Of a stretch of DNA of 20,703 bases, positions 1,293 to 3,458 are shown piece by piece; within the stretch, counting starts at the first letter, position 1; each line of letters starts with the position of its first letter. Under the pieces are notes generated by a model. It did not search any database, was not told the origin of the DNA, and saw only the letters and a program-made list of their open reading frames with translations. The position numbers were made by a program, and so were the translations under genes. Location of the stretch: the IMG/VR virus record IMGVR_UViG_3300040962_000366, positions 1-20,703 of that record; one strand, 5' to 3'. The stretch comes from a virus.

Positions 1293-2015
1293 ATGCCCTT
1301 ACCAAAGATTTCTACACCAACATATGAGTTGGTATTACCTTCTAATGGGAAGAAGATTAAATATCGCCCATTCCTTGTAAAAGAAGAAAAGATTCTAATC
1401 ATGGCATTGGAATCGGAAGATATGAAACAAATTACCAGCGCCATCATTCAAATTTTAAATGATTGTATTATGACAAGAGGTGTTAAAGTTTCTAATTTAG
1501 CAACTTTTGATATTGAGTATTTGTTTTTAAATATTCGTTCTAGATCTGTTGGAGAAACTGTAGAAGTTAATATCACATGTCCTGATGATGGTGAAACAAT
1601 GGTACAACAAGAAATTGACTTAGATACCATACAAATTCAAAAAGATTCTAACCACAAAAATATTATAAAATTAGATGATACTTTATCAATGAAATTAAAG
1701 TATCCATCTATGAATCAATTCGTGGAAAGTAATTTTGAAACTTCGGATAAAGGTTCTGATGTCGAGAAGTCTCTTGAAATGATTATGTCTTGTGTCGATA
1801 TCATTTATAATAAGGAAGAAAGTTGGGATGCTTCGGATTGTACTAAAAAAGAATTGAAAGATTTTATCGATCAATTAAATACGAAACAATTTAAAGAAAT
1901 TGAGAATTTTTTCACAACTATGCCTAAACTTTCACATACAGTATCTGTAAAGAATCCAGAAACTGGTGTAGAGTCTGAAGTTGTATTAGAAGGGTTAGCA
2001 AGTTTTTTCAGTTGA
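1293..2015 (+). CDS. 26: Baseplate hub protein gp26-like; short tail-assembly chaperone form
   Basis: This 240-residue protein opens with PTYELVLPSNGKKIKYRPFL and continues with LVKEEKILIMALESED, the pattern I associate with the T4 baseplate gp26 family of marine T4-like phages (T4 gp26 is 208 residues). TRGVKVSNLATFDIEYLFLN at about residues 61-80 is a second conserved block. gp26 acts in hub assembly around the tape measure. The last codons read LASFFS then TGA at 2013-2015. The Phe-Phe codons form T TTT TTC in the phase that permits a -1 slip into the downstream ORF. This makes gp26 the likely abundant short partner of a lambda gpG/gpGT-style chaperone pair. Its position immediately before the tape-measure gene fits that role. 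Family call strong; chaperone role inferred. Confidence 0.82.
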   Translation: MPLPKISTPTYELVLPSNGKKIKYRPFLVKEEKILIMALESEDMKQITSAIIQILNDCIMTRGVKVSNLATFDIEYLFLNIRSRSVGETVEVNITCPDDGETMVQQEIDLDTIQIQKDSNHKNIIKLDDTLSMKLKYPSMNQFVESNFETSDKGSDVEKSLEMIMSCVDIIYNKEESWDASDCTKKELKDFIDQLNTKQFKEIENFFTTMPKLSHTVSVKNPETGVESEVVLEGLASFFS

Positions 2016-2028
2016 GTATGGCTCATAC
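2003..2028 (+). promoter_or_regulatory. Programmed -1 ribosomal frameshift site (slippery heptamer plus hairpin)
   Basis: T TTT TTC occupies 2003-2009, with TTT (2004-2006) and TTC (2007-2009) being the in-frame gp26 codons. This is the X XXY YYZ phasing required for a -1 slip. A six-base spacer (2010-2015, containing the zero-frame TGA) leads to a perfect five-base-pair stem GTATG/CATAC with a GCT loop (2016-2028). A second CATAC at 2040-2044 offers an alternative pairing. After slipping, translation reads Gln-Leu-Ser-Met-Ala and continues to 2197. Direct sequence evidence is strong; efficiency is unknown. Confidence 0.78.
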
Positions 2029-2197
2029 GAGTCTTGAGTCATACTACAAAATTAACTTTGCTTTGATTCAGCACCATAAATATTCATTAACAGAACTAGA
2101 AAATATGATTCCGTGGGAGAGAGAAGTTTATCTTACTCTCCTTCAACAATACATTGAGGAAGAAAACCTAAAGGCACAACAGAAGAGTGGAATCTAA
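2012..2197 (+). CDS. -1-frame extension of gp26 (gpT-like domain of a tail-assembly chaperone)
   Basis: This short ORF is in the -1 frame relative to gp26 and overlaps its last codon. It has only a TTG (2012) or an ATG (2018) as possible starts, and neither has a good Shine-Dalgarno. It is therefore best read as the C-terminal part of a gp26 fusion made by frameshifting at 2003-2009, spanning 1293-2197 and about 300 residues. The sequence YSLTELENMIPWEREVYLTL is helical and acidic. Its PWERE.Y..LL core is like the second (T) component of phage tail chaperones. Fusion proteins of this kind bind tape-measure protein and recruit tube subunits. The ORF overlaps the tape-measure GTG by 11 bases. 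If translated alone it would be a protein of about 60 residues. Confidence 0.72.
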   Translation: MSMAHTSLESYYKINFALIQHHKYSLTELENMIPWEREVYLTLLQQYIEEENLKAQQKSGI

Positions 2198-3458
2198 AAT
2201 TTTTAAATCACCATTAATTAAAACTAGTGGAAGAAGAATTTCCTCTTCAAGTATTTCTTCTTCTGGTAGTAAGGGAGATGTTACATCTGTATTGACAGAA
2301 ACTAATAGAATTCTTGTAGAGATTCAGAAGCAACTCTCTCTTGATTTTGCAATGAGAGCAGCAGAAGAAAAAAAGGAAAAGAGAGATAATAAGATATCTG
2401 AATCTAGAAAAAGATTTAAAAAAGAAGAAAGTGTATTAGAAAAAACATCTAAAAAAATTAGAAAATCTGTTGGTAAAGCTTCTGAGAAAATTGTTTCTCC
2501 AGCAGTTAATATTTTTGATAAGATATTAGAATTTATTAGTATTGTTGGTGCCGGAATAGCAGTTAATGCTGCCTTTAAGTGGTTTGAAGATGAAGAAAAT
2601 AGAAAAAAATTAGTTAAATTTTTTAATATATTAAAGGAAAATTGGCGACTTGTAGCAAGGATACTTGGAACTCTTGTTGCTGGTGGAGTTATGCTTAAAG
2701 CAGCAGGTGCTATAACAACGATTGCAGCAGTTATAAACATTCTCGCATCTGCAACTATGCTAAAGTTTTTAGCAGTTGCTGGAACAGTAGCATTTGGAAT
2801 TTGGATAGCGGAGCAAATAAAAAACTTTAGTGCTGGTGGAAAACAATATCGAGAATTATATGAAGAAAATAATGAGAAGTTAAATGAGGCTGGGGTTGGT
2901 CAACCATCCAGTCCACTATCCAAATCTGCTCCATTACTTACACCAAATCCAAAAGGTGGATATTTTCAAATGGTTATGAAAGGTATGGATCAAAATACAG
3001 GTCAATTTGGAAACCTCACTACTACATCTATAAATCCACAAACTAATAAACTGTATGCCACAGAAGCACAATTAAAGGCATTTTCTTCTTGGAAAACTGA
3101 AAAACTTAGAATAGATCAACTCGCTAAAGAAGGTAATGTACCTGAAGGAAGAGCACTGGGTGGTCCAGTATCAGCAGGAATTCCATATTTGGTTGGTGAA
3201 AGAGGTCCAGAAATTTTTGCTCCTAATGTTGATGGTTCAATCATTAATAATATGAGAACTGAAAAAATATATCAAATGATTTCATCTGATATAGAAGGTG
3301 ATATTGATTTTATTGAACTTCCTCCTATTACTAATAAGATTCCACCACCAAATGTTCCTTCTTTGGAACAAGCAACTGATGTTCCCATGATCTCAAGTAC
3401 AAATTCGGCAGATCCTTATCTACAAGTTTCTCCAAAGTTATATGGAGTAATGGTATAA
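2187..3458 (+). CDS. Tail tape-measure / baseplate hub protein (gp29-like role)
   Basis: This 423-residue protein begins at GTG 2187, overlapping the upstream ORF. It has a Ser-rich start (18-29), a strongly charged coiled coil (about 55-100), and hydrophobic helices at about 113-131 and 153-210 containing many Ala, Gly and Val. Near the C-terminus (323-353) is a motif with RALGGPVSAGIPYLVGERGP followed by EIFAPN, which is very common at the ends of phage tape-measure proteins. Such proteins set tail length and are ejected toward the host membrane, which suits the hydrophobic helices. At 423 residues it is shorter than T4 gp29 (590) and alone would span only a short tail. Its N-terminal half resembles that of the next protein, so the two may act together. 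Confidence 0.68.
   Translation: MESKIFKSPLIKTSGRRISSSSISSSGSKGDVTSVLTETNRILVEIQKQLSLDFAMRAAEEKKEKRDNKISESRKRFKKEESVLEKTSKKIRKSVGKASEKIVSPAVNIFDKILEFISIVGAGIAVNAAFKWFEDEENRKKLVKFFNILKENWRLVARILGTLVAGGVMLKAAGAITTIAAVINILASATMLKFLAVAGTVAFGIWIAEQIKNFSAGGKQYRELYEENNEKLNEAGVGQPSSPLSKSAPLLTPNPKGGYFQMVMKGMDQNTGQFGNLTTTSINPQTNKLYATEAQLKAFSSWKTEKLRIDQLAKEGNVPEGRALGGPVSAGIPYLVGERGPEIFAPNVDGSIINNMRTEKIYQMISSDIEGDIDFIELPPITNKIPPPNVPSLEQATDVPMISSTNSADPYLQVSPKLYGVMV

Follow-up and report, generated by a model that had tools for sequence, protein, structure and literature searches.

A conserved candidate −1 frameshift site in gene 26 of T4-like phages and the short and long tail chaperones that it would encode

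We have examined gene 26 of a marine T4-like phage in a stretch of viral DNA of 20,703 nucleotides (nt) (IMG/VR record IMGVR_UViG_3300040962_000366, positions 1 to 20,703), referred to here as the window, together with the corresponding gene in related phages. This gene very probably carries a conserved −1 programmed frameshift, through which both a short and a long tail chaperone would be made. All features described in the window lie on its plus strand. The zero-frame product, gp26 (1293-2015; 240 amino acids), is a likely short tail-assembly chaperone (TAC-N) with the C-terminus ...LASFFS, and its final codons read AGT TTT TTC AGT TGA. Within these, T TTT TTC (2003-2009) forms a slippery heptamer of the type X XXY YYZ in phase with the gp26 codons, a single AGT codon separating it from the TGA stop at 2013-2015. 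A first-pass annotation, made from the letters of the window alone, had proposed a −1 slip at this heptamer, and the codon reading bears out the phase that it assigned. Taken in one sequence the heptamer is unremarkable and not decisive, since the open reading frames (ORFs) of the window hold 61 in-phase X XXY YYZ heptamers in 6,500 codon positions and a random synonymous choice would spell Ser-Phe-Phe as T TTT TTC around 9% of the time. Three of the 61 are TTTTTTC, and another in-phase TTTTTTC lies inside gp26 itself, at 1907. The test is therefore one of conservation.

For this we compared 185 distinct junctions, drawn from IMG/VR contigs found with three queries and from the reference phage loci fetched by then. 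An in-phase slippery heptamer is present in 184 of them (181 TTTTTTC, two TTTTTTT and one TTTTTTG), and in 181 it starts exactly 10 nt before the zero-frame stop; in the sole exception, L182, the end of gp26 is missing from the assembled sequence. A more distant set, mostly of the pelagiphage type but including a Sinorhizobium type, has T TTT TTT or T TTT TTC in 57 of 58 distinct junctions, the exception carrying a stop inside gp26. Every heptamer found has a T ahead of the Phe codons. In a set of 160 non-redundant gp26 genes these two codons are TTT in 159/159 and TTC in 156/158, and for synonymous constraint they take the first two places among 112 conserved gp26 codons. Chance cannot give conservation at this level. 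Of 18 reference phages read with the two-frame arrangement, 17 carry a heptamer: seven cyanophages, the Pelagibacter phage HTVC008M, the Vibrio phages ValKK3, D486 and EniLVp02, the Aeromonas phages Ahp1 and AS-zj, Stenotrophomonas BUCT608, Sinorhizobium phiN3, Rhizobium P10VF and Pseudoalteromonas XG4. The form T TTT TTC is found in P-SSM2, P-SSM4, Syn9, P-HM1, MC09, MbCM1, ValKK3, EniLVp02, D486, BUCT608, Ahp1, AS-zj and BUCT-ZZ01, with T TTT TTT in HTVC008M and phiN3, T TTT TTG in P10VF and T TTT TTA in XG4. The first-pass annotation had looked to related phages for conservation of both the heptamer and the −1 ORF, and nearly all of the relatives examined retain them.

The −1 frame entered at the heptamer (2003-2197) would encode a gpT-like C-terminal domain, FFQLSMAHTSLESYY..., which corresponds to the 'gp51' of cyanophages. 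In the window this is a 61-codon ORF overlapping gp26; its translation, FFQLSMAHTSLESYYKINFALIQHHKYSLTELENMIPWEREVYLTLLQQYIEEENLKAQQKSGI, runs to a stop at 2195-2197, and it overlaps the next ORF (GTG at 2187) by 11 nt. The first-pass annotation had likewise described a −1 frame open to 2197 and overlapping the start of the tape measure. The predicted peptide across the slip site is ...VVLEGLASFFQLSMAHTSLESYYK (...LASFFQLSMAH). Both parts belong to the profiles of the T4 gp26/gp51 chaperones, with gp26 matching PF12322 (T4_baseplate; 3.5e-74) and phrog_150 (1.5e-80) and the −1 domain matching phrog_634 ('baseplate hub assembly catalyst', gp51; 4e-29). The −1 domain also matches the end of the gp26 profile, phrog_150 positions 231-278 (5e-8), so that this public family already has both parts in one chain. 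In tblastn searches the domain finds matches in 545 phage records at E<=1e-5.

The relationship becomes clearer when phages closer to T4 are considered. In Escherichia JS09, Acinetobacter Acj61, Aeromonas avDM4, Shewanella Thanatos-1 and Escherichia GoldenSnicker, gene 26 (around 184-214 amino acids) and gene 51 (around 250 amino acids) lie on opposite strands. In the profile comparison, which covered the pairs of JS09, Acj61 and avDM4, gene 26 ends at phrog_150 position 234-235, and all of gene 51 is covered by the match (in JS09, residues 3-249 on profile positions 13-281, 5e-89). The C-terminus of gene 51 in turn aligns with the −1 domain (hhalign probability 95%, E 2.5e-8). Gene 51 is thus a full gp26-like protein with the C-terminal domain attached, which makes T4-type gp51 the in-frame equivalent of the proposed frameshift product. 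T4 gene 26 itself ends GAG TTC TTT GAG TTA CTA TAA and has neither the heptamer nor the −1 domain. The state of JS09, Acj61 and avDM4, with a separate full-length gene for the long form, is not the state found here; the window is a fragment of a genome, however, and another copy may lie outside it.

Structural modelling is also consistent with a chaperone function. The AlphaFold2 (AF2) model of gp26 is good (pLDDT 87), and the three best solved folds for its N-terminal domain (residues 1-95) are 3fgx (Z 8.1), the HK97 tail assembly chaperone 2ob9 (Z 7.8) and YqbN, 3klu (Z 7.0). T4-type gp51 being homologous to gp26 joined with the −1 domain, that relationship and these matches together support the suggestion of the first-pass annotation that gp26 is a tail chaperone. 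The AF2 model of the C-terminal domain alone is weak (pLDDT 72, pTM 0.47). No usable match came from searching PDB sequences with profiles of gp26 and gp51, nor from NCBIfam. A fourth fold match, to gp26 residues 6-93, is 5ir0, ORF19 of a Vibrio cholerae phage-inducible island-like element (Z 5.3), which may represent a tail-chaperone fold in a satellite protein.

A candidate stimulator of frameshifting lies 5 nt past the heptamer, at 2015-2045, where AGUAUGGCUCA (2015-2025) can pair with UGAGUCAUACU (2035-2045) to give a stem of 11 base pairs (bp) with a 9-nt loop, at a predicted −16.1 kcal/mol (z −4.3). When this stem is traced in 51 diverse relatives, 85.7% of cells pair, compared with 25-43% when the stem is slid along the alignment. 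Covariation is also seen, both sides being changed in 13 cells where shuffles give 4.0 (0 of 500), though these cells count sequences rather than events and possibly reflect few independent changes. The clearest case is column 14-28, in which GCT/GAG becomes GCA/GTG or GCG/GCG with the pair kept; the change is a silent one in Ala on one arm and replaces Glu by Val or Ala on the other. The 3′ arm also holds unusual codons, with Ser written TCA in 123/128 and Glu written GAG in 112/128. The stem is confined to a P-SSM2-like marine clade; P-HM1 has an unrelated hairpin in the same place (z −3.8). The first-pass annotation had instead pointed to a perfect GTATG-GCT-CATAC hairpin behind a six-base spacer. 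That sequence is present at 2016-2028, but its folding is weak (−3.9 kcal/mol, z −1.4), its outer pair is found in only 18/51 relatives and a slid control covaries more, so we do not regard it as the stimulator; the longer stem is the stronger one and its spacer is 5 nt. In sister groups (L117, L150, L156 and their relatives, and L087) the 11-bp stem has been lost and T TTT TTC kept; several of these also have no start codon left near the junction, and in some a different stem, CTCTAG/CTAGAG, is possible in a shifted register.

Upstream, GAAGGG (1989-1994) is a Shine-Dalgarno-like (SD-like) element 8 nt before the heptamer. In dnaX a Shine-Dalgarno-like stimulator is found in an arrangement that this one resembles. 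One of GGAGG, GAGGG, AGGAG or AGAGG occurs 24-25 nt before the stop in 126/160 relatives, and the Glu codon at this point is GAG in 127/155, against 31% overall, the window itself having the minority GAA. The case for this element as a stimulator is moderate, because another Glu column is equally rich in GAG.

How the C-terminal domain could be reached without a slip needs careful consideration. Between the upstream −1 stop and a point 45 nt beyond the gp26 stop, ATG, GTG and TTG are all absent in at least 18 distinct relatives, and ATG is absent in 29; the start-less relatives retain both the domain and the heptamer. Unless a non-standard start is used, these start-less phages can make the domain only via gp26. 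For the real domain of HTVC008M and MbCM1 there is no fitting start codon. The nearest −1 starts in the window are TTG 2012 and ATG 2018, from which the purine-rich GAAGGG is 17-23 nt upstream, too far for a normal start; the first-pass annotation had likewise seen no good ribosome site of its own for this ORF. Public annotation of 'gp51' in cyanophages and pelagiphages contains faults at L164 1861-2004, L167 1861-1998 and L177 1513-1692: the gene is shortened in Syn9 and HTVC008M, starting some 50 nt into the domain, and absent in MbCM1.

Several observations weigh against frameshifting as we propose it. Vibrio phage D495 (L262 1045-2001) has the −1 ORF but no canonical heptamer, and an ATG overlaps its gp26 stop; it is the only phage in which we saw this combination, which the first-pass annotation had set against its own proposal, and a secondary loss of frameshifting is possible there. 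The 11-bp stem is not universal, with Syn9, HTVC008M and EniLVp02 showing no unusual folding at the junction, and RNAalifold predicts no consensus structure on the mixed-clade alignment, for which reason support for the stem was drawn from the count of the named structure. The Z values near 8 for the fold matches are borderline by the tool's own warning, and in Foldseek the gp26 model has no significant match (E 0.9), so the fold is supportive rather than proof. Finally, ATG 2018 stands just past the TGA, and reinitiation there could also yield a free C-terminal domain. As a separate observation, K485 was the second match in the search that found D495 and resembles it; its junction lay outside the comparison.

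The position of ATG 2018 leads to the alternative in which gp51 is a separate translation product, made by ribosomes that reinitiate, or are translationally coupled, at this codon (or at TTG 2012) beyond the gp26 stop. Deposited records do annotate a separate gp51 coding sequence, and several Vibrio and Rhizobium phages have an ATG that overlaps the stop. However, the annotated starts are inconsistent from record to record, the SD-like element is too distant from the candidate starts, and the relatives that lack start codons altogether could not use such a route. Nor would separate translation explain the frozen TTT TTC, and we therefore consider it very unlikely.

We give still less credence to slippage of the RNA polymerase on the T run, which would produce a mixed mRNA and a fusion of transcriptional rather than ribosomal origin. 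The run is T6 in most relatives and T7 in those of the pelagiphage type, which would favour such a process, but six Ts is a short run for transcriptional slippage. Almost every member of the main set moreover has a C closing the run, whose codon phase is fixed, and a compensated stem 5 nt downstream fits a ribosomal stimulator. The least credible explanation is that the Phe-Phe codons are kept for some other reason and no fusion is made. Both frames preserve the two residues, and a late-promoter-like motif at another point of the −1 ORF indicates that other DNA signals overlap the region. It is, however, the choice of codon and not the residues alone that is frozen, along with the T that precedes them, and without a fusion the −1 domain would be untranslatable in the relatives that have no start codon.

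Two neighbouring features deserve mention. The ORF directly downstream (2187-3458) is a putative tape-measure gene, with weak similarity to tape-measure profiles (phrog_1538, 1.5e-5, residues 312-353); in HTVC008M the putative tape measure is one ORF further downstream. Inside the −1 ORF, upstream of this gene and outside the frameshift signal, CATAAATA (2075-2082) resembles a T4-type late promoter. The motif is present twice, the other copy lying ahead of gp26 at 1258-1265, and TTCAT follows both. Within the −1 ORF, ATAAATA is kept in 151/160 relatives, with frozen codons CAT (152/153) and AAA (153/156). By count the motif is not enriched in the window, and the case for a promoter rests on its conserved position, from which it appears that the frameshift domain probably embeds a late promoter for the downstream tail genes.

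The proposed arrangement can be compared with several known systems. The tail-assembly chaperones gpG/gpGT of phage lambda depend on a frameshift at G GGA AAG, and the likeness to gene 26 lies in a C-terminal extension in the −1 frame; the differences are the T TTT TTC heptamer, the longer N-terminal domain (240 amino acids, PF12322 family) and a C-terminal domain of about 62 amino acids. In P2, E/E+E′ uses T TTT TTG, also a poly-T heptamer in a myovirus tail-chaperone gene and identical to that of Rhizobium phage P10VF; this likeness is one of slippery site, sequence relation being outside the comparison. With gp26/gp51 of T4 the protein families themselves are shared, as is the pairing of a short form with a long form that bears the same C-terminal domain, but T4-type phages encode each form in a gene of its own, the two lying on opposite strands.

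The view of gp26 as a tail chaperone has been put forward before. Vladimirov, Gautam and Davidson (2022; Virology 566:9-15) identified the T4-like tail chaperones gp26/gp51, and the passages that cite their work describe T4-like phages with one short gene and one longer fusion gene (PMC10885494) and polyT slippery sequences in the TAC-N genes of T4-like phages (PMC12846349), so that the concept of a frameshifting chaperone is already known to this extent and part of the present findings may be contained in that study. For phage Adele, of the Vandenendeviridae/Andersonviridae, a −1 slip has been proposed on an invariant GTTTTT near the end of TAC-N, with the −1 frame open in every genome (PMC12846349). 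This is a different phage family, likened here by its conserved poly-T slip and open −1 frame, with homology outside the comparison.

The heptamer and its phase, their conservation, the covarying stem and the homology of the domains can be read from the sequences themselves; from these we infer that slippage occurs, how efficient it may be and what the two products do. Most ribosomes would stop at TGA 2013 to release gp26 (TAC-N), and a minority would slip by −1 on T TTT TTC (2003-2009), helped by the 11-bp stem-loop 5 nt downstream and perhaps by the SD-like GAAGGG 8 nt upstream, to give a longer form, TAC-NC, which is gp26 with about 62 further residues and has its counterpart in lambda gpGT. 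If the lambda model carries over, the tape measure would be coated by TAC-N, and tail-tube protein would be recruited by the added domain of TAC-NC.

On a broader scale, we see an even chance that a frameshifting gene 26 is the widespread condition in the T4 superfamily, extending over cyanophages, pelagiphages and phages of Vibrio, Aeromonas, Stenotrophomonas, rhizobia and Pseudoalteromonas, that T4 and the phages closest to it gave this up and came to encode the short and the long chaperone in two genes instead, and that the signal of the P-SSM2-like marine clade also has a covarying 11-bp stem kept despite amino-acid changes; this breadth and the stem are maybe undescribed. Hundreds of marine T4-like genomes, in which 'gp51' is annotated as separate, shortened or missed, would join the class with a tail-chaperone frameshift. 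One superfamily would present an evolutionary contrast between recoding in most lineages and two genes in that of T4 itself. This would qualify the picture of T4-like phages as doing without frameshifting, and would explain why the essential gp51 of T4 resembles gp26.
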